DNA from: a virus
Reading direction: 5' to 3' (one strand)
Length of the DNA stretch: 43,222 nt
Virus record (IMG/VR): IMGVR_UViG_3300034068_000319
Location: 1-43,222 of that record
The notes under the pieces were generated by a model, which did not search any database, was not told where the DNA came from, and was given only the letters and a program-made list of their open reading frames with translations. This document shows positions 4,575 to 41,720 of this stretch, one piece after another (the first letter of the stretch is position 1; the number at the start of each line of letters is the position of its first letter). The translations under genes were made by a program, and so were the position numbers.

Positions 4575-4590
4575 TGTGATCAATATCACA
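4575..4590 (+). promoter_or_regulatory. CRP/GlxR-type operator, full consensus
   Basis: TGTGATCAATATCACA matches TGTGA-N6-TCACA in all ten defined bases. It lies about 105 bp upstream of the predicted transcript start of the DUF932 gene. CRP-family regulators (GlxR, Cmr, Crp) using this site are standard in actinobacteria; binding here is inferred. Confidence 0.55.
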
Positions 4591-5976: not shown

Positions 5977-6195
5977 ATGACCAAACAAGTGGCAATATAT
6001 GAAATGAACTACTCCTGCTCCCCTGGTGGCGTTGACTGCTGGGAAGCAACTATCAATGGCTACGGTACTAGTAGTACTGCTAGTGATTTTAAAACTGCTG
6101 GAGAAGCCCTCAACTGGGTACTTGACAGACACCCTGACGAAATGTTAGAATTGGTAGTAACCTCACTTCCCGCTTATGAAAAGGAATATGTATGA
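5977..6195 (+). CDS. hypothetical protein, 72 aa
   Basis: Leaderless start at ATG 5977. The protein has a CSPGGVDCWEA stretch (about 14-24), then a probable helix, and a hydrophobic C-terminal strand. It is the first gene of a tightly overlapped operon running to 7153. It overlaps the next start by 4 nt (ATGA). No family recognised. Confidence 0.7.
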   Translation: MTKQVAIYEMNYSCSPGGVDCWEATINGYGTSSTASDFKTAGEALNWVLDRHPDEMLELVVTSLPAYEKEYV

Positions 6196-6419
6196 CCCAA
6201 AAAACAGACACAATGCTAGAACCCTACTACTCTTGCGACCTTAGTATTTCTATTGTCAATATAGACGCTAGAAATAAATTTCACGCAGAGTCTATTATGC
6301 AAAAGTTCATAGATGAGATTGCCGTAGTTATGGACGAACAAGTCCGCTGGCACGAAGCCGATTGGGAAATTACTGAAAATGTGTATGACCCTACAACAGG
6401 TAGTTGGTTTGAACAATGA
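6192..6419 (+). CDS. hypothetical protein, 75 aa
   Basis: It is coupled by ATGA to both neighbours. Alternating strands and one helix (residues about 33-52) suggest a small alpha/beta fold similar in outline to DpnD/PcfM-like proteins. There are no membrane segments or metal motifs. Function unknown. Confidence 0.65.
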   Translation: MTQKTDTMLEPYYSCDLSISIVNIDARNKFHAESIMQKFIDEIAVVMDEQVRWHEADWEITENVYDPTTGSWFEQ

Positions 6420-8327: not shown

Positions 8328-8680
8328 TGGGAGCACGTATTAACTATGTCTTTAAAGACAGTGATGAGGGCCCTGTAGTAGTACTATACAGCCATTGGGG
8401 CCAAGACGGCTGGGAGACAGACATTGCTGCAGCCCTGGAACACGCTAGGCCACGCTGGCAAGATTCATCGTATGCAACCCGTATGATGATTAGTTATCTT
8501 ATCCAACACAGCATTCTTGATGAAACAGGTTTTGGTATCTATGCCATTAATCAAGACGGCTATGACCTAGGGGAGCAGACAATCCTCATCGACTTTACTA
8601 CCAATACTATTACTGATAATGTATCTGTCAATTGGGATAAATTTATTTTAGCCTTTGGACGTACAGGTGCCCTAGTTTAA
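8327..8680 (+). CDS. hypothetical phage protein, 117 aa
   Basis: Coupled start at ATG 8327 (TAATG). The N-terminus GARINYVF and the SHWGQDGW segment (about 22-29) recall a widespread phage/plasmid hypothetical family without known activity. It ends the operon, followed by two GC-rich hairpins and a new promoter. Confidence 0.7.
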   Translation: MGARINYVFKDSDEGPVVVLYSHWGQDGWETDIAAALEHARPRWQDSSYATRMMISYLIQHSILDETGFGIYAINQDGYDLGEQTILIDFTTNTITDNVSVNWDKFILAFGRTGALV

Positions 8681-8696
8681 TATTTCGCTGAGCGCT

Positions 8697-8758
8697 AACA
8701 GGGAATGGGTCCCCTGTTGGAATATAGGGTGGAGCGTGAGTTCTGAGTCTTGCGCTCC
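8697..8758 (+). terminator. two hairpins between operons
   Basis: AACAGGG 8697-8703 pairs with CCCTGTT 8712-8718, and GGAGCG 8731-8736 pairs with CGCTCC 8753-8758. The second arm overlaps the -35 of the next promoter. U-runs are short (CTTACTTTTT at 8761-8770 follows), so this may be a terminator running into the promoter. Confidence 0.45.
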
Positions 8759-8778
8759 CCCTTACTTTTTGGTATAAT
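8750..8778 (+). promoter_or_regulatory. promoter TTGCGC-17-TATAAT
   Basis: TTGCGC 8750-8755 and TATAAT 8773-8778, then an SD GAGAGGAG before ATG 8800. Confidence 0.6.
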
Positions 8779-8799
8779 GAATAGAGAGGAGTTTGCCCA

Positions 8800-9036
8800 A
8801 TGGCGTATAGTGTTAGAAAAGCACAGAGTAATAAAGAAACAAGAAAAGCAGAAGCATTGGCAAAACTTCTAACTGAAGATTTTTCTATTGACCTAGAGCG
8901 GGTTGGTTATTATTTGGTTAGGAATATGCCCACGATTGTATTTCACAGATTAGATGTTCTTGCCTTGTCGGCAATGGAAGAGTATGATAAACTTAGTGTA
9001 GAGATGAAAACTGGAGGAAAACCACCTTGGCGTTAA
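8800..9036 (+). CDS. hypothetical protein, 78 aa
   Basis: GAGAGGAG precedes ATG 8800. The protein is helical with a basic N-terminus (RKAQSNKETRKAEALAK) and looks like a small DNA- or protein-binding helix bundle, which I cannot confirm. The last 10 nt overlap the next gene. Confidence 0.65.
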   Translation: MAYSVRKAQSNKETRKAEALAKLLTEDFSIDLERVGYYLVRNMPTIVFHRLDVLALSAMEEYDKLSVEMKTGGKPPWR

Positions 9037-9335
9037 ACTTAGCAGATAAATCAGGAATAATGGCTGAACTATGGATGAACTATAGGGATGACAAAAACTT
9101 CTCAGACTTTTTTGGATACAATGATATTGGGTTACCAATGTCGTATTACTTGGCTGAAGGATTGATCACAGAACTATCACCACTGGGTGAGCAATACATA
9201 ATGGAATCTTGCGATATGTTCTTGGCAATGCTGGAGGTTACTGAAGACGATGTAGATAGCCTAATAGACATAAACCTAGATGCTGTGTTAAAGTTATCTA
9301 TGGAAAAGAAGGAACAGCCTAACCCTGAAGTATAG
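9027..9335 (+). CDS. hypothetical protein, 102 aa
   Basis: TTG 9027 has GGAGGAAAA about 10 nt upstream. The product is acidic and Met-rich, with a stretch of alternating charged helices at the C-terminus. It is the last gene before the iteron region. Function unknown. Confidence 0.65.
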   Translation: MALNLADKSGIMAELWMNYRDDKNFSDFFGYNDIGLPMSYYLAEGLITELSPLGEQYIMESCDMFLAMLEVTEDDVDSLIDINLDAVLKLSMEKKEQPNPEV

Positions 9336-9366
9336 GGTTGCTGCCCGAGGATTCTTTGTCAAACCT

Positions 9367-9500
9367 CAAACCTTTATATTGTCATAAGAAGATTACGAAG
9401 AGAGATTTCTTTTCCCCAATCATGGCATATCATCAAACCTTCATATTGTCAAATTAAGATTACGAAGAACAAATTCTTTTCCCCAATCATGCCAAACCTT
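9367..9500 (+). repeat. direct repeats, about 60-67 bp, with CAAACCTT and ATTACGAAG blocks
   Basis: Copy A (9367-9433) and copy B (9434-9492) share CAAACCTT-ATATTGTCA, then AGATTACGAAGA, then TTCTTTTCCCCAATCATG. A third, partial copy begins at 9493 and runs into the -10 of the gene at 9530. They are likely iterons of a replication or partition region. Confidence 0.7.
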
Positions 9501-9517
9501 TATATCTAAAACCATGT

Positions 9518-9523
9518 TATACT
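9518..9523 (+). promoter_or_regulatory. -10 box TATACT of a leaderless gene
   Basis: TATACT ends 7 nt before ATG 9530. There is no clear -35; the position is occupied by the third CAAACCTT copy. Confidence 0.5.
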
Positions 9524-9529
9524 TATATT

Positions 9530-9784
9530 ATGAGTCCAAGACATTTTGCAGATTATGCTAAAAGATATCCTAAACAATATCAGGCATTCTCCGATTCAAT
9601 GTGGAATGGTTTTGTATCTGTTACTAAGCATGTTCCTATTATGGGAAGGTTCTTTTCTTTTACCCCCGCCCATTCCGTGATTGATGATCCTATTAGTGAC
9701 GGCGAAGCCGTGGGCGCAGCCCTTGCAGAGATCTATTTAGAAGCCCAGCCAGAAAATGGCGGGGAATTCAGACCAGGCTTCTAA
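9530..9784 (+). CDS. hypothetical protein, 84 aa, inside the iteron region
   Basis: Leaderless ATG 9530. The protein begins MSPRHFADYAKRYP, is basic and aromatic at first, and acidic late (AVGAALAEIYLEA helix). Its location between two iteron blocks suggests a link with replication or partition, an inference from place alone. Confidence 0.6.
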   Translation: MSPRHFADYAKRYPKQYQAFSDSMWNGFVSVTKHVPIMGRFFSFTPAHSVIDDPISDGEAVGAALAEIYLEAQPENGGEFRPGF

Positions 9785-9818
9785 CAATCCTATAGTAATA
9801 AACACCACTATAAATTAT

Positions 9819-10040
9819 CAAACCTTTTCTCCTGGTTTTTAAATATTTATCAAACCTTTATATATTTTTATTACGAAATTCGAATAATTTTCCCTGGTTT
9901 TGGGGATTTTTTTATGCAGTAAATGGGCTTGACAAACCATCATATATAAGATATAATGCCCAAACCCTGCATACAAAGGTTTGACAAATAAGGTTTGATA
10001 TGATATCATCTGCGGGCATATGAAGGTTTGAAGGTTTGGG
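9819..10040 (+). repeat. scattered CAAACCTT / AAGGTTTG iterons
   Basis: CAAACCTT occurs at 9819 and 9851. Inverted or near copies lie at about 9976 (AAAGGTTTG), 9991 (AAGGTTTG) and 10022-10050 (several AAGGTTT). The stretch is very AT-rich and has no convincing gene. Confidence 0.6.
9929..9957 (+). promoter_or_regulatory. near-consensus promoter without a gene
   Basis: TTGACA 9929-9934 and TATAAT 9952-9957 with 17-bp spacing. No reading frame follows within 300 bp, so the RNA would run through iterons towards the DnaA boxes. It could be a replication primer or a transcriptional activator of the origin. A second, weaker pair is TTGACA 9981-9986 with TATCAT 10004-10009. Confidence 0.6.
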
Positions 10041-10159
10041 GATGTGAAGGTTTTGCGCCAGAGGATTACGACGCCTTCGTTAAAAGCGCTCTATCCTCCA
10101 CTACTCTCCACAATGCTCCACTTCTACTCTGTCTAATAATATAATCAGTAAGATCTATC

Positions 10160-10213
10160 TGTGGATAAACCTGTGTATAACTAATATTTCTAAGCATCCA
10201 AACCTGTGGATAA
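10160..10213. other. DnaA-box cluster, candidate replication origin
   Basis: TGTGGATAA at 10160-10168 and 10205-10213 are exact reverse complements of the TTATCCACA DnaA box; TGTGTATAA at 10172-10180 differs by one base. Three boxes within 54 bp, next to AT-rich DNA and iterons, suggest a host-DnaA-dependent origin. No phage replication gene lies in the window to test this. Confidence 0.6.
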
Positions 10214-10249
10214 CCTATAAACCCAGGGTATATAAAGATTACGATACAC

Positions 10250-10278
10250 TGGATATTTCCCCATATCTGTGCTATGAT
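10250..10278 (+). promoter_or_regulatory. leaderless promoter TGGATA-17-TATGAT with ATTACG box
   Basis: ATTACG at about 10238-10243 is followed by TGGATA 10250-10255, TTTCCCC and TATGAT 10273-10278; ATG 10285 is at +7. The same layout occurs at 1027 and 5942. Confidence 0.6.
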
Positions 10279-10284
10279 GAATGT

Positions 10285-10425
10285 ATGAGAATAAACCATG
10301 GGAAAATGTCGGGCAACTATGCTATTGGCGTATACATCCATAACTGGGGACATCCTATAAAAAATGATTGGGAAATCGGTTTCCAGTTCTTTAAGTGGTA
10401 TGTCGGAATAGACTTCTTTAAATGA
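10285..10425 (+). CDS. 46-aa Trp/Phe-rich small protein (family with 11577 and 15804)
   Basis: Leaderless ATG 10285. The pattern I-H-N-W-G...W-E-I-G-F-Q-F-F-K-W-Y-V-G-I-D recurs in two other small proteins here: an HIGF/WGFS block followed by a W-[FY]-x-I-x-[IV] block. Probably a small beta hairpin or membrane-associated protein. ATGA overlap with the next micropeptide. Confidence 0.6.
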   Translation: MRINHGKMSGNYAIGVYIHNWGHPIKNDWEIGFQFFKWYVGIDFFK

Positions 10426-10508
10426 AACCTTTCCTAATCATAATGCTTGGTCTATTCATCTTTCTTAACTATATGGCCTATCTTCAACAAATCCGTATGG
10501 CTGGATGA
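10422..10508 (+). CDS. 28-aa membrane micropeptide
   Basis: ATG 10422 overlaps the previous stop (ATGA). The peptide has one hydrophobic span of about 18 residues (FLIIMLGLFIFLNYMAY) with a short charged end. Coupled translation and a clean single span support a real gene. Confidence 0.5.
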   Translation: MKPFLIIMLGLFIFLNYMAYLQQIRMAG

Positions 10509-10516
10509 TTATATGA

Positions 10517-10522
10517 TAAAAT
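10517..10522 (+). promoter_or_regulatory. -10 box TAAAAT of a leaderless gene
   Basis: TAAAAT ends 7 nt before ATG 10529, the rule seen at many genes here. Confidence 0.4.
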
Positions 10523-10528
10523 ACATCT

Positions 10529-10651
10529 ATGGATAAATTTGAATCATCATACAGTAAGTTTATGGGTTATAGGGTAGCCTGTACTCAATGTAATCAACTA
10601 TATATTAAGGATAATGATGAACCCTTTGTATGTCTTACGTGTGCTGCCTAA
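10529..10651 (+). CDS. 40-aa zinc-ribbon protein
   Basis: CTQC (residues 18-21) and CLTC (35-38) form a compact zinc ribbon. Leaderless ATG 10529; its stop overlaps the next ATG at 10651 (TAATG). Confidence 0.6.
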   Translation: MDKFESSYSKFMGYRVACTQCNQLYIKDNDEPFVCLTCAA

Positions 10652-10779
10652 TGCCTATAGTATTATGCTTTGACTGTGGTGCTTCCTTTAATGTCCCATA
10701 TGACACTCCAAACCCTACAAGAGCCTGTCCCAAGTGCCTAGACAAGATGTGGGAATCTCAAACCTCATTTGAAGAGTAG
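10651..10779 (+). CDS. 42-aa zinc-ribbon protein
   Basis: CFDC (6-9) and CPKC (26-29) give the second zinc ribbon in a row. Coupled to the 40-aa gene by TAATG. Such pairs could be anti-host peptides or nucleic-acid adaptors; nothing in the sequence decides. Confidence 0.6.
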   Translation: MPIVLCFDCGASFNVPYDTPNPTRACPKCLDKMWESQTSFEE

Positions 10780-10810
10780 TGTATTACTACTAGGGGTAAT
10801 GGGTCCTTTC

Positions 10811-10839
10811 TTGACTTCCCCCGCAATTTCTGAGATAAT
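10811..10839 (+). promoter_or_regulatory. leaderless promoter TTGACT-17-GATAAT
   Basis: TTGACT 10811-10816, GATAAT 10834-10839, ATG 10846 (+7). Confidence 0.65.
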
Positions 10840-10845
10840 GGTTTA

Positions 10846-11190
10846 ATGGATCAAAAAGAAAGAACTGCCCATCTTAAGGCTCTCTGGCATCAACGCAATA
10901 AAGATCGCAGACGGCAGGCGATAAGGCTTCGCAGAAGCACCAAGCGCCAGTATGTGCATAACCTTAAAGAAGGTAAGTCTTGTATGGATTGTGGCATTGA
11001 GTATCCTCCATATGTCTATGACTTTGACCATCTTCCCCAATTTGAAAAGTCCTTTCCTCTTAGCAGTACAGGCATGAGAGATAAGACTATGGAAGAGATT
11101 ATTGCTGAGATAGACAAGTGTGAATTAATATGTGCTAATTGCCATAGACATAGGACCTATATGCGGACTATAGAGAAATCTAACCAATAG
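10846..11190 (+). CDS. HNH endonuclease, 114 aa
   Basis: A very basic N-terminal helix (residues 1-40) precedes an HNH fold: C46 and C49 with C96 and C99 as the structural zinc site, DH at 61-62, and N98 with H102 as the rest of the catalytic motif. Size and layout suit a free-standing phage HNH nuclease, either a homing enzyme or a DNA-processing enzyme. Leaderless start at ATG 10846. It is followed by a hairpin (TGCCCG/CGGGCA at 11191-11205). Confidence 0.85.
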   Translation: MDQKERTAHLKALWHQRNKDRRRQAIRLRRSTKRQYVHNLKEGKSCMDCGIEYPPYVYDFDHLPQFEKSFPLSSTGMRDKTMEEIIAEIDKCELICANCHRHRTYMRTIEKSNQ

Positions 11191-12314: not shown

Positions 12315-12377
12315 AATCTAACCAATATTGCTACGGAGTAGCATAGGGAGGTTTATAACTCCTATTTTGCGCCGAAC
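12315..12377 (+). repeat. structured repeat, copy 2 (partner at 11177)
   Basis: AATCTAACCAATA, hairpin TGCTAC-gga-GTAGCA (12329-12343), AGGGAGGTTTATAACTCC and CGCCGAAC. Compared with copy 1, three of six stem pairs are changed on both sides. It precedes the promoter of the monooxygenase gene. Confidence 0.6.
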
Positions 12378-12387
12378 CCTAATGCTG

Positions 12388-12393
12388 TATAAT
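12388..12393 (+). promoter_or_regulatory. -10 box TATAAT of the monooxygenase gene
   Basis: TATAAT ends 7 nt before ATG 12400. A weak TTTTGC sits at the -35 position. Confidence 0.55.
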
Positions 12394-12399
12394 AAACAT

Positions 12400-13203
12400 A
12401 TGAAGATCAATATGCACTGGATGCACCGTAATGCTTGGGAAAACAATAAACACGACCTTGTTGAAATGGCTAAATTTTTCGAAACTTTAGGCGTTAAATC
12501 TATTTTGCTACCTTACGGACCCAATGGCTTAGATTATTTACTTCATACACCTAACATACTTAATGCTACTGATAAGGTTAGAATACTTATTGCTTTACCT
12601 GCCTATGCCGTTACCCCAGAATATGCAGCAAAGATATTTTGGACTATGCGACAATTTAATGGCCACAGGCTTGATCTAAACCTTGTTGCTGGTAACTATG
12701 GAGGAGAACTGGCTGAATCAGTGCTAAATGACTACCCAGGAGATACATCACACATAGATACACATGAAAAAAGAGTTGCCCTTACTGAGCCATGGATTGA
12801 AAAGTTTACTAATTTAATGAAAGGTAAGGGTGTTGAATACACATCATATGTTGTCGGAGAATCTGACATGACTATTGGTATAGCGAACAAGTATACCGAC
12901 TTCTTAATAATAAACCATTCAATGCTATGGCCAAGCCAAATGCACAGACTTACTAATGTAAGGCCAATGCTTGCAATAGACCCCCTTATTATAGACAATC
13001 TAGAAGATATTGACAAGGTTGAATACTACCATTATGCCTACGAAAAGAAAAGTCATCATCAGATAAAGGGAACATACGAAGAGGTTGTCGCAAAAATAAG
13101 ACAGATATCAGAAGAACACAAAATATATGACTTTATAGTGCATACTGACCAAAAGAATCTTGACCCAATGTTTAAAATGATGAAGGAGATATCTAGTAGT
13201 TAA
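12400..13203 (+). CDS. luciferase-like (LLM) flavin-dependent monooxygenase, 267 aa
   Basis: It resembles the bacterial luciferase/alkanesulfonate monooxygenase (SsuD) TIM-barrel family, which uses reduced flavin and oxygen. Visible signatures are GVKSILLPYGPNGLD early, a P-A-Y-A-V-x-P-E-Y-A-A-K block, NGHRLDLNLVAGNYGGEL (about 87-104), and later barrel strands. It is shorter than typical members (about 330-380 aa), so peripheral insertions may be missing. The leaderless ATG 12400 is preferred over a longer frame from 12328 that would read through the promoter. Substrate unknown; a sulfonate or similar small molecule is possible. Confidence 0.75.
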   Translation: MKINMHWMHRNAWENNKHDLVEMAKFFETLGVKSILLPYGPNGLDYLLHTPNILNATDKVRILIALPAYAVTPEYAAKIFWTMRQFNGHRLDLNLVAGNYGGELAESVLNDYPGDTSHIDTHEKRVALTEPWIEKFTNLMKGKGVEYTSYVVGESDMTIGIANKYTDFLIINHSMLWPSQMHRLTNVRPMLAIDPLIIDNLEDIDKVEYYHYAYEKKSHHQIKGTYEEVVAKIRQISEEHKIYDFIVHTDQKNLDPMFKMMKEISSS

Positions 13204-13229
13204 TATTATAGGCCTGTGGATAACTGTGT

Positions 13230-17708: not shown

Positions 17709-18113
17709 ATGGTAAAAACAGCACTGGATCTTTTTAATGATCCTTTTTTCAACACCTTCTCAAATCTTCAGAAGGTAACAACAACAACAAACTATCCACC
17801 TTACAATCAGGTCAAACTAAATGATAAAGAGTACATTCTTTCATTTGCTTTGGCGGGATTTTCTAAGGATGATGTCTCAGTATCGCTAGATAATCGCAAA
17901 CTTACAATCAAGGGCGAGAAGAAGGATGCTGAGTTGCCAGAGGGTGCGGAGTATCTACACAAGGGAATTGCTGCTCGCAAGTTCACAGATATCTTTACCC
18001 TTCCTGAGTTTGTCGAAGTTGTTGGGGCTGAATTTAAGGATGGTATCTTAGATATCAAACTTGAAAAGCAAATCCCAGAAGATAAACTACCAAAATCAAT
18101 AACTATTTTGTAG
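17709..18113 (+). CDS. hsp20: small heat-shock protein, Hsp20/IbpA-like, 134 aa
   Basis: NYPPYNQVKLNDKEYILSFALAGFSKDDVSVSL opens an alpha-crystallin domain (residues about 28-120). LTIKGEK, GIAARKFTDIFTLPEFV and a GILDIKLEKQ end strand follow, as in IbpA. Such ATP-independent chaperones hold unfolded protein; phage copies are known, especially in cyanophages. GAAAGGGG precedes ATG 17709. Confidence 0.92.
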   Translation: MVKTALDLFNDPFFNTFSNLQKVTTTTNYPPYNQVKLNDKEYILSFALAGFSKDDVSVSLDNRKLTIKGEKKDAELPEGAEYLHKGIAARKFTDIFTLPEFVEVVGAEFKDGILDIKLEKQIPEDKLPKSITIL

Positions 18114-37637: not shown

Positions 37638-37816
37638 TATTCATCATCCCATTCCTTATTTCTAACTGGATAGGTAATTGCCCATGCAATCAATGTACCA
37701 ACAATTGCATAGCCTACTACCGTTTTTGCAGAACCATCAAGGACTACCCAGGCAATAAACATACCTAGAAGTGTCCAAAGTTGATCTATCATATCTTTGA
37801 TTATTTTCTTTATCAT
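37637..37816 (-). CDS. two-span membrane protein, holin-like, 59 aa
   Basis: ATG 37816 overlaps the stop of the large secreted protein (ATGA), with GGAGAAGAAG upstream; TAA overlaps the next ATG. Two membrane spans (about 12-27 and 33-48) and an acidic end. A partner or antiholin for the 95-aa protein is possible. Confidence 0.65.
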   Translation of the reverse strand: MIKKIIKDMIDQLWTLLGMFIAWVVLDGSAKTVVGYAIVGTLIAWAITYPVRNKEWDDE

Positions 37817-40551
37817 GGTCTTCTTCTCCTTATTCCCTTGGAATCGCCAGAGGCTCCTCCGCCACCTGATCCTCCAGAACTACTGCCTGTGGACCCTCCA
37901 GTGGAACCTGTCGCAGCACCTACAGCATTTAACGCTGCTCCTGCTGCTACAACTGTTGCTACAACCATTTCGGTTGCTTCTTCTCTTTCGCTTTCTGTCA
38001 TATCTGCGCCTATGCTACCCAATGCTTCTAATGCTGCTCCAGGGTCATTAAATAATTCTGCTGCAAATGCTGCTGGGTCGGAAACTAGTTCTACTTGAAC
38101 GGCAACCTCTGCTGTAATAACAACAGCCTCACCATTTTCGGATGTACGAACATCAACTGGTGTGCTTGCTGGTAAATCTGATAATTTAATTCCAGCCTCT
38201 GCAACCTGTTGTGCAGTAAGATTTTCACCTTCTGGCACTGATTGAATTAACGCATCAGCAACAATATCTTTTTCTGCTTCAGATAATTTACCATCTGAAC
38301 TTGCTAGTGCAACAATTGCTGCAACATCTTCTTGTGAAACTTCACCGTCTGATGCAAGTGCTTCTAGTACTGCTTCTTGATCTGCTACAGAAACTTTTCC
38401 ATCTTCTGCCAATGCTTCAATTAATTGATCAGTTTCTTCTGCATCAATTTCTCCATCTGCTGCCATTGACTCTGCAATTGCATCGACCTCTTCACTATCT
38501 AATTTACCGTCTGACAGTGCATCATCAACTGTATTGGTTACATCTTCTTCGGATCCCGTCACTGGTTCTATATCAACTGGTTCAACGTCTACTGGTTCTG
38601 TATCCACAGGTTCTGTTTCAACAGGCTCTGTGTCTATAGGCTCTGTCTCTACAGGAGTAGTGTCTATAGGCTCTGTCTCTATAGGAGTAGTGTCTATAGG
38701 TTCTGTTTCCACTGGTGTGGTATCCACGGGTTCTGTATCTACTGGCTCTGTATCTATAGGTTCTGTTTCAACAGGTGTTGTATCTACAGGAGTAGTGGTT
38801 ACTGGTGTGGTGTCTACTGGTGGAACAACTACTGGTGGATCTACAACTGGAGGTTGAGTAACTGGAGGTTCTATAACTGGAGGTTGAGTAACTGGAGGTT
38901 CTATAACTGGTGGTTGAGTAACTAAAGAAGGTGGAGCAGGTGTTACAACGGGTTCTGGGGCTGGTGCAGGAACTGCATTAATTACTGCTTGTGCGGTAGC
39001 AATAACAGTTGGTGCTGCTAATACTGCTTCTACTGCTGTTGAAACAACTGCAATATCTGCTACTTTTGTAGTTAATGTTGTAGTTGCTGTTGTTAATGCA
39101 GTCACAGTGTTTGCAGAAACAGTAGCGATTACAGGAATTGCTACTGCGGCTGTTGTATTTGCTGTATTTGTTGCAACAATCGCCGTAACTGCTGAGTTTA
39201 ATGTAGCAATTTGTGCATTTGCTGTATCAATTGCCGCTAGTACTGTTGCATTGTCTGGATCAGGAGTAGGTGTAAATGCAGCGCCTTGATTAATTGTTCC
39301 AGTAAACCCTGTAGTAGTGCTTGTATTAGCAATAGGTGTTACGGCACCCCCAGTTGTCTCTCTTACATTAAACCTAGCGCCATTTGGTATTGGTCCAGTC
39401 ACGCTTACATCTGCTTGCCATGCGCCATCTGCTGGGTTAACATCGGCATTAAACCTAACTTGAGTCATCTGTGTCTCGGCAGTAGTAAGAGGATATACTC
39501 TAAGGTCCCACGCAATAGACAGAGTATTGGTTGTTGTTGAATAAGTAATACCAGATCCATTACTCCATGTAGTCCAGTCATAACCCGCTACAGAAATTGA
39601 AGGGGCATTGGGTGTAGAGGAGTAGTTTTGTCCTTCATTTACTCCAAAGGTTATTGTTGCATTAGAACTAACATAAACATTGTTATATGTGACTCCACCC
39701 ATTTGTAAATTAAATGGAAGGTTCATGCGGATACCCGCATCATCTGTATTTGCTAAAACATTTGATGTTGTTCCAACTGTGGCTACCAAAGCATTTACTG
39801 CATCTTGAGCATTATTAATTGCAACATTTGCCTGAGTTAATTGTGTCTGCGCCTCTGTAGTTGCAGTGGTTACTGCTGCTACCGCCGTGGTTGCCGTTGC
39901 CACTGTGGCAGTTGCGGTATCTATTGTCGCCTGTGCTGCCTGTATTGCAGTAGAGGCTGTTGCAGCCTGTGCTACTTCTGTTGTAATTGCGGTGGCTACT
40001 TGAGTAACGGTAGTTGGAGATTCTGTCATTAAGGGGGTTGCTGTTGCTATAACTGTTGCAGTTGCAGACTCAACGACGGGGGTCGCTGCCGTGACAGCAG
40101 TTTGTGCTACAGCAACTTCTGGAGTCTGTGTTGTTGCGGTTACAGGTATTGCTGCAATTGCTGTGGTTACGGCAGTTACTGCGGTAGTAACGTCTTGCGT
40201 TACTGTTGCTGCTGTTGCTACAACTGTGGAAACATTTGATACTTCTGCTACGGCAGTGGTGGCTGCTGTGACTGCAGTAGTTGCTGCTGCTACGGCCGTG
40301 TTAGATGTTGTTACTGCCTGTACTGCAGTCGCAATAGTTGCTGTTGCTGTATCTGAGGCTTGTGCTGCTTGGGCTACCTCTGTGGTGGCTGTTGCTAAGG
40401 CTGTATTTACTGCCTGCTGGGCTGGACTTACGACTACTTGCTCTGATGGGGCTGGTGCGCCATCAGCATGTGCTTGATCAACTGGAGATATCAACATCCA
40501 TAAAGTCAAGAGCAAACCTACTAATCCAGATTTGATGAGAAGTGATTTTAT
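37813..40551 (-). CDS. large secreted Ala/Thr-rich surface protein with repeat region, about 912 aa
   Basis: A signal peptide ends in QAHA. Then come a long Thr/Ala/Val coiled region, a globular middle (NLPFNLQMGGVTYNNVYVSS to about residue 410), a Pro-rich hinge of PPVTQ/PPVIE units, and about 20 copies of a 6-residue PV[DE]TEP unit. Five EF-hand-like or TerB-like D-G-x-[IVL] repeats and a Gly/Ser tail follow. The frame opens with ATA at 40551, placed just after GGGGGAAAGG, which gives an intact KSLLIK n-region; TTG 40515 is the first standard start but loses the positive charges. Likely virion-surface or host-surface protein. Confidence 0.7.
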   Translation of the reverse strand: MKSLLIKSGLVGLLLTLWMLISPVDQAHADGAPAPSEQVVVSPAQQAVNTALATATTEVAQAAQASDTATATIATAVQAVTTSNTAVAAATTAVTAATTAVAEVSNVSTVVATAATVTQDVTTAVTAVTTAIAAIPVTATTQTPEVAVAQTAVTAATPVVESATATVIATATPLMTESPTTVTQVATAITTEVAQAATASTAIQAAQATIDTATATVATATTAVAAVTTATTEAQTQLTQANVAINNAQDAVNALVATVGTTSNVLANTDDAGIRMNLPFNLQMGGVTYNNVYVSSNATITFGVNEGQNYSSTPNAPSISVAGYDWTTWSNGSGITYSTTTNTLSIAWDLRVYPLTTAETQMTQVRFNADVNPADGAWQADVSVTGPIPNGARFNVRETTGGAVTPIANTSTTTGFTGTINQGAAFTPTPDPDNATVLAAIDTANAQIATLNSAVTAIVATNTANTTAAVAIPVIATVSANTVTALTTATTTLTTKVADIAVVSTAVEAVLAAPTVIATAQAVINAVPAPAPEPVVTPAPPSLVTQPPVIEPPVTQPPVIEPPVTQPPVVDPPVVVPPVDTTPVTTTPVDTTPVETEPIDTEPVDTEPVDTTPVETEPIDTTPIETEPIDTTPVETEPIDTEPVETEPVDTEPVDVEPVDIEPVTGSEEDVTNTVDDALSDGKLDSEEVDAIAESMAADGEIDAEETDQLIEALAEDGKVSVADQEAVLEALASDGEVSQEDVAAIVALASSDGKLSEAEKDIVADALIQSVPEGENLTAQQVAEAGIKLSDLPASTPVDVRTSENGEAVVITAEVAVQVELVSDPAAFAAELFNDPGAALEALGSIGADMTESEREEATEMVVATVVAAGAALNAVGAATGSTGGSTGSSSGGSGGGGASGDSKGIRRRRP
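38270..38520 (-). repeat. five EF-hand/TerB-like repeats in the large protein
   Basis: Tandem units of about 17 aa with D-G-x-[IVL]-[DS] and a following acidic helix (SDGKLDSEE, ADGEIDAEE, EDGKVSVAD, SDGEVSQED, SDGKLSEAE). They could bind calcium and stiffen the stalk. Confidence 0.6.
38570..38930 (-). repeat. short tandem repeats encoding PV[DE]TEP and PPV units
   Basis: An 18-bp unit (about 15-20 copies) then a 30-33-bp unit of PPVTQPPVIE type. The near identity of adjacent units suggests length variation by slippage. Confidence 0.75.
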
Positions 40552-40658: not shown

Positions 40659-41720
40659 TTACTTCTTTAGTGCAACCTTAGCCTTTGGGAACTTAGCGTT
40701 CCACTTCTTTGCCAATGCGTTGTACTGTGCAACATATGTAGCCTTAGCAAGATCTGATGCTGCCTTTGCAGTTACTGTTGCTGAATCAGATGCTGCCTTT
40801 GCGTCTGCAAGTGCCTTATCTGCTGCAACCTTATCTGCTGCACGTCCTGCCTTCTCTGCTGCAAGTGCTGCATTAGCAACTGCTAGTGCTGAGTTAGCAA
40901 CTGCAAGTTCTGCGTTCTTTGCTGCAAGTTCCCCTGCAAGATCACGAACTGCTACTACTGCAACTACAGAACCTACTGGCGCTGCAAGGCCTGTAACGGC
41001 TGCTGCTACTGTTGCGTATGCTGTAACAGTAACTGAACCTGAAGCAGGAAGTGTAATTGTCTGCTCCTTAGTTCCAATTGTTGCTGTTACTGTATCTGTT
41101 GTAAGCGCTGTTGCTGTTGCAACACCATTTGAAGATACCAATGTGTTAACAGTTACACCACTCTTAGGATTACCAAATACGTCAAAAGCAGATACCTTAA
41201 GTACCTGTGATGTACCTGCTGCTCCTGATGTTGGTGCAGAAAGTGTAATAGAGTTTGCTGTTGCTGCAGAGTTTGAACCCTGAACATAGTAAACTGTTGT
41301 AGTTCCAGCACGGGTAATCGATACTGTTCCTACTGCTGTACTTTTAGTATATACGTAAAAGTCTGCTGCTGTTCCAGTTCCTGTTGCAACTGAAAGTGTT
41401 GAAGAACCGTTTGATGCGGTTACTGGTGCTGTTGATGTTGCTAGAGCAGGAACAATTGTTGCATTTGTTGCAACTGCTGTTACTACTGTTCCAGTGTCTA
41501 CTGACGTTACAGCAATCTTCAATGCATCTGCTGCATCGATACTGTTGTCTGCTGGCACTGGTAGTGATACAGGAGTTGTTACTACTGTTCCACCTGTTGC
41601 TGCAGAACCCGCTACCGTTAGGGTAACAGTTCCAGCGTTTGCTTGCGCTGCTGGCGATACGAGCATTGTGCTAGTCAGGGCTGCAGCGATGATTAGCGAT
41701 ACTTTCTTGAATGAATTCAT
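40659..41720 (-). CDS. secreted Ala/Thr-rich surface protein with coiled-coil end, 353 aa
   Basis: Signal peptide MNSFKKVSLIIAAALTSTML ending QANA; residues about 30-250 are Thr/Val/Ala beta-rich with Ig-like spacing (SAPTSGAAGTSQVLKVSAFD then FGNPKSGVTVN); residues 265-330 are an Ala-rich coiled coil; a basic end (KFPKAKVALKK) follows. It looks like a surface or S-layer-like protein, perhaps of host origin. AAAGAGAT precedes ATG 41720; own terminator at 40611. Confidence 0.75.
   Translation of the reverse strand: MNSFKKVSLIIAAALTSTMLVSPAAQANAGTVTLTVAGSAATGGTVVTTPVSLPVPADNSIDAADALKIAVTSVDTGTVVTAVATNATIVPALATSTAPVTASNGSSTLSVATGTGTAADFYVYTKSTAVGTVSITRAGTTTVYYVQGSNSAATANSITLSAPTSGAAGTSQVLKVSAFDVFGNPKSGVTVNTLVSSNGVATATALTTDTVTATIGTKEQTITLPASGSVTVTAYATVAAAVTGLAAPVGSVVAVVAVRDLAGELAAKNAELAVANSALAVANAALAAEKAGRAADKVAADKALADAKAASDSATVTAKAASDLAKATYVAQYNALAKKWNAKFPKAKVALKK

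Follow-up and report, generated by a model that had tools for sequence, protein, structure and literature searches.

A conserved module of iterons, a consensus promoter and paired DnaA boxes in a large freshwater actinobacteriophage, a candidate initiation site used with host help

Organization of the locus

Between positions 9359 and 10213 of the window (the whole stretch of DNA analysed here, 43,222 nucleotides), short repeats, promoter sequences and a group of DnaA-type boxes are arranged on the two sides of one small gene. The initial annotation had reported tandem repeats and a single small gene in the roughly 900 bp from 9359 to 10260, and both were borne out. The repeat, CAAACCT, occurs 11 times within 850 bp, as against 3 at most in 60 first-order Markov simulations, and 22 times across the whole window; the clustering is above chance and provides the several iterons in one short region that are expected of an iteron origin. 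Four forward iterons start at 9360, 9367, 9434 and 9493 (9360-9499, plus strand), and the same part holds a 67-bp tandem duplication (copies 9366-9432 and 9433-9499) containing TCAAACCTTNATATTGTCA, ATTACGA and TTTTCCCC in this order. Two further forward iterons at 9819 and 9851 (9819-9857) lie in a stretch of up to 80% A+T, and another is found at 10199. On the minus strand, inverted iterons (AGGTTTG) start at 9977, 9991, 10024 and 10032 and are followed by AAGGTTT at 10047, giving an inverted stretch of 9977-10053. The small gene is an 84-aa ORF between the iterons (9530-9784, plus strand), and 29 sequences were aligned with 36-90% identity to the window protein. This protein matched nothing in Pfam or PHROG, and its AlphaFold model was unreliable (pLDDT 54) and was dropped as a guide.

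Downstream of the ORF, a sigma-70 promoter (TTGACA-N17-TATAAT, 12 of 12 consensus positions) is located at 9929-9957 on the plus strand; the reconstructed 112 kb genome has no other exact match to the sigma-70 consensus. It is preceded by a terminator-like hairpin with a T tract (9891-9913, plus strand; the hairpin itself at 9891-9906), and a second promoter-like site (TTGACA-N17-TATCAT, 11 of 12, plus strand) lies at 9981-10009, within the inverted-iteron stretch. The promoter at 9929 had been described as having no gene behind it. It is present and perfect, but the second part of that description was wrong, because a conserved 46-aa ORF (10285-10425, plus strand; 54-91% identity in relatives) is the first gene downstream; this ORF falls below the usual length cut-off, and more short ORFs and an HNH gene come after it. 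With these ORFs downstream, the inverted iterons and the boxes are contained in a leader of about 320 nt. An RNA origin or structured leader RNA was rejected, since there was no match to an Rfam family and there were no compensatory pairs in 29 sequences.

The leader carries the remaining elements in a fixed order. An ATTACGA element (10065-10071, plus strand) is followed by three copies of CTCCAC at exactly 10-bp spacing (10096, 10106 and 10116; 10096-10121, plus strand) and by an A+T-rich segment with an invariant CAGTAA (10132-10158), which is a candidate opening site. This segment has about 80% A+T, modestly above the 62% of the genome; a second A+T-rich part lies at 9801-9875. The three DnaA-type boxes that had been noted at 10160, 10172 and 10205 were confirmed and are all on the minus strand. 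Those at 10160 and 10205 read TTATCCACA and that at 10172 reads TTATACACA; the first two form a double box, TTATACACA-N3-TTATCCACA (10160-10180), and the third stands at 10205-10213. Three boxes in 60 bp compare with a maximum of 2 in 60 simulations, and strong boxes adjoin the iterons, as in an iteron origin. The fourth box was also confirmed, as an isolated TTATCCACA (13215-13223, minus strand) past a gene ending at 13203; looser single sites, TTATNCACA, occur at 10953 and 11280. A DnaA-trio motif beside the boxes was sought by eye, with no clear match.

The phage and the conservation of the module

The window is a piece of a genome of about 112 kb. It is contained in contig IMGVR_UViG_3300042297_000197 (112,415 bp) with 100% identity over 35,041 bp and 99.96% over 8,410 bp, and both ends of that contig overlap inside the window, so that the contig closes as a circle. 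WhiB, a marker of actinobacterial phages (PMC10202952), is encoded in all six full-length relatives, which indicates an actinobacterial host for this large freshwater phage. For its polymerase, portal and DUF932 proteins, the nearest counterparts are those of the Stanwilliamsviridae of Streptomyces (47-55% identity), to which the phage is distantly related. Its replication genes include a DnaE-type polymerase, a DnaB-like helicase, a primase, SSB, UvsX and a RuvC-like resolvase. Neither a tyrosine integrase nor a ParA-type ATPase was found in the six full-length relatives, and for this reason the phage does look lytic, as had been supposed. A nucleotide search with 8500-11000 gave no match among annotated phages, and no description of the site was found in the literature searched, which left subscription journals mostly outside.

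Several other genes in the window were noted. They include a luciferase-like monooxygenase domain protein (12328-13203; PF00296 above cut-off), which is unusual phage cargo, and a phage-encoded Hsp20 small heat-shock protein (17709-18113; phrog_432, E 4e-37). The part from 16.3 to 32 kb encodes several 2OG-Fe(II) oxygenase-like proteins (19205, 21672 and 30579) and a NolO-like carbamoyltransferase (29158), a combination that suggests DNA or surface modification. Large, secreted-looking Ala/Thr/Val-rich proteins with low-complexity repeats and no PHROG match are encoded at 37813-40515 and 40659-41720.

Fifty distinct relatives align over the module and keep its layout, namely iterons, promoter, TTACGA, 10-bp-phased CTCCAC, CAGTAA and double DnaA box. 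TTGACA-N16-18-TANNNT stands upstream of the boxes in 48/50 relatives and is exact in 40, while a hairpin with a T tract was seen by a simple test in 19 of 48. Across 29 aligned relatives, there is no variation in TTACG, in CAGTAA or in most of the double box, and nearly all keep the 10-bp spacing of CTCCAC. Furthermore, 68 further loci were fetched by the core pattern; 66 of them have TCCAC two or three times in the 90 bp that precede the core, and the 68 loci have a mean of 8.9 CAAACC per 700 bp versus a background of 0.57. When loci were fetched by the generic double box and those already obtained by the core pattern were subtracted, none of the 73 additional loci had the family core. Of the 1,680 permutations of its letters, TTATCCACA is the most frequent across 80 related loci (1.35 Mb; 437 occurrences versus a mean of 18), with TCAAACCTT and CAAACCTTT at ranks two and three; in these loci CAAACCTT is concentrated at +4 to +6 kb of the DUF932 gene.

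The iterons, the CTCCAC phasing and the CAGTAA core are concentrated at this one site, unlike the boxes, of which each genome has 6-13 perfect copies, mostly clustered within about 15 kb. There are also double boxes with no iterons, at -70 to -130 bp and at -4 to -8 kb of the DUF932 gene. Some 100 bp ahead of the DUF932 start, such double boxes have a terminator-like hairpin on one side and a promoter on the other, and are accompanied by TTACGA and by Crp-type TGTGA-N6-TCACA palindromes. The palindromes (at 4575 and 7096 in the window, and from -8 to +3 kb of the DUF932 gene in relatives) show strong enrichment across the early region, and the iteron module has none. A search of the phage genomes for a Crp HTH domain found nothing; a phage-encoded Crp was therefore rejected, and a host Crp/GlxR-type regulator may act on these sites.

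Host DnaA and the function of the site

The spacing of the boxes points to their binder. Among 134 same-strand close box pairs, 86 have a gap of 2 or 3 bp (26 at 2 bp and 60 at 3 bp), and most other same-strand gaps in the family are near multiples of the helical turn. In ChIP-seq, E. coli DnaA prefers box pairs 2-3 bp apart, and one base pair added inside a 3-bp pair strongly lowers its binding (PMC11317965). DnaA domain IV was undetected in the six full-length relatives, in a search whose control was positive in 10 of 14 genomes, and a phage-encoded DnaA was rejected. Given this spacing, and with no DnaA detected on the phage side, binding by host DnaA is to be expected, and it is very probable that DnaA binds the pair. 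The initial annotation had considered the use of host DnaA by a lytic-type phage uncommon; these two observations support such use here, and the lytic look of the phage is supported as well. The same double box was found in 54 bacterial contigs of many phyla, several of them actinobacterial and most with few boxes around it, so the host cannot be named from the double box.

Taken together, the site is probably one at which the phage starts DNA copying, or switches on nearby genes, with host help. We consider a conserved cis-acting initiation site at 9359-10213, that is, an iteron and host-DnaA replication origin, to be the best reading, with about an even chance of being correct. What the sequence shows is the set of elements, the order in which they stand, how well they are conserved, the gaps between the boxes and a phage in which no DnaA was detected; from this we infer DnaA binding, strand opening and a replication start. 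Host DnaA would dock on the double box (10160-10180) and on the third box, and a further protein would bind the CAAACCTT iterons, which stand in both orientations on either side of the site. Transcription driven by the 9929 promoter would cross the A+T-rich segment and aid its opening, and the DnaB-like helicase, primase and DnaE polymerase encoded by the phage would then assemble.

The proposal of an origin made in the initial annotation stands in part. The iterons, promoter and boxes, conserved as one module, fit it, but the promoter has genes behind it, and double boxes without iterons near other early promoters mean that boxes alone mark no origin. The GC-skew check that had been proposed was run. 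On the circular map, the cumulative minimum falls 83-101 kb downstream of the site (or about 16-35 kb from it the other way), yet there is no change of slope at the site and the skew tracks gene orientation in all six genomes; hence GC skew neither supports nor refutes an origin. No Rep_3 initiator was found in the six relatives, so the linked Rep of an iteron origin was not seen, and a P1-like Rep/Par origin was rejected, as neither Rep_3 nor ParA was found there.

The strongest competing explanation is DnaA-responsive control of early transcription, in which host DnaA and an iteron-binding regulator would control the tandem promoters (9929 and 9981) that drive the short-gene cassette from 10285, with the other double boxes serving other early promoters. 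The iterons overlap both -35 elements (TTGACAAACC and GGTTTGACA), the 46-aa ORF downstream is conserved, DnaA is a known transcription regulator (PMC11317965), and the double boxes ahead of the DUF932 start, with their TTACGA and palindromes, are near early promoters. We regard this explanation as possible but clearly the less probable of the two, given that the iterons, phased CTCCAC and CAGTAA core are gathered at a single site, that the boxes here lie about 200 bp downstream of the promoters and not upstream, and that the module is bigger than a usual promoter region. An origin is favoured; it would account for the iterons and the pair, for the candidate opening segment and the promoter, and for the order in which they are conserved.

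A T5-like injection stop, or first-step-transfer region near a terminal repeat, at which repeats and a bound host protein would hold up DNA entry until the early proteins of the phage have been produced, is improbable. In T5, the left terminal repeat carries TTATCCACA boxes (6121, 6194 and 9510), a published description of the injection stop signal names repeats, palindromes and DnaA boxes, and the terminal-repeat boxes have been linked to halted injection, not to replication (PMC13250531). The double box of Paradiddles lies about 50-70 bp outside a 10.8 kb terminal repeat, but the boxes of Annadreamy and BillNye are about 5 kb or more from their short terminal repeats (789 and 2,262 bp), and the host here is an actinobacterium and not an E. 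coli-type cell. Hardly to be expected is a decoy, in which the many strong boxes of the first-expressed region would titrate host DnaA and halt host replication, for titration requires no iterons, promoter, phased CTCCAC or conserved order.

Comparison with known systems

Six cultured Stanwilliamsviridae have 2-4 boxes in a gene-poor gap of the early arm at the equivalent position, with repeats nearby. In Annadreamy, an unannotated 1.5 kb gap at about 118.4-119.9 kb contains five repeats of GTTCAACA/TTGAACGTTCAA type and the pair ATGTGGATAAACCTGTGGATAACT, which is near-identical to the double box of the window family, whereas the neighbouring repeats differ. Two or three boxes share a single noncoding gap (0.9-1.5 kb) in each of Paradiddles, Wakanda, Yaboi and Blueeyedbeauty, and BillNye has four boxes within 290 bp at a gene-poor spot, in partial overlap with a short annotated ORF. 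Unlike the window, some of these phages have other repeat sequences, and the records read carry no origin annotation. A pair kept in some phages beside differing repeats would fit a changing repeat-binding partner and a constant DnaA. We propose, tentatively and at somewhat less than even chance, that a widespread lytic actinobacteriophage lineage with a complete replisome of its own needs a host DnaA dimer on the double box and an iteron-binding protein at one dedicated origin, and that the exchange of iterons with retention of the DnaA pair is its evolutionary signature in freshwater phages and Stanwilliamsviridae. In the literature searched, the replication start of large lytic actinobacterial phages is largely unmapped; the present analysis offers a precise conserved site, predicts host-DnaA dependence and extends to cultured Streptomyces phages.

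In the iteron and DnaA-box origins of P1 (oriR), pSC101 and F, direct and inverted iterons lie by strong DnaA boxes and an A+T-rich segment; the window resembles them in its iterons and boxes and has a candidate for the A+T-rich segment. It differs in that no Rep_3 or ParA was found, that the phage looks lytic and has its own replisome, and that the double box lies inside a promoter leader; the P1 iterons are treated in PMC7157519. The double DnaA boxes of E. coli (PMC11317965) are identical in the 9-mer, the paired orientation and the gap of 2 or 3 bp, whereas those of the window are on a phage and are combined with iterons and a dedicated promoter.

The left terminal repeat and injection stop signal of T5 (Demerecviridae) are also comparable, for there too a lytic phage of about 110-120 kb has gene-poor early DNA in which TTATCCACA boxes and repeats are found. 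At 6121-6202 of T5 (AY543070), two TTATCCACA boxes lie in the intergenic gap between divergent promoters of the terminal repeat, separate from the annotated injection stop signal. In the stretch read, the T5 boxes are single and widely spaced, unlike those of the window, and in Loccivirinae, unlike T5, the boxes are not tied to the terminal repeat. The present site joins T5 as an example of a lytic phage whose early DNA carries DnaA boxes.
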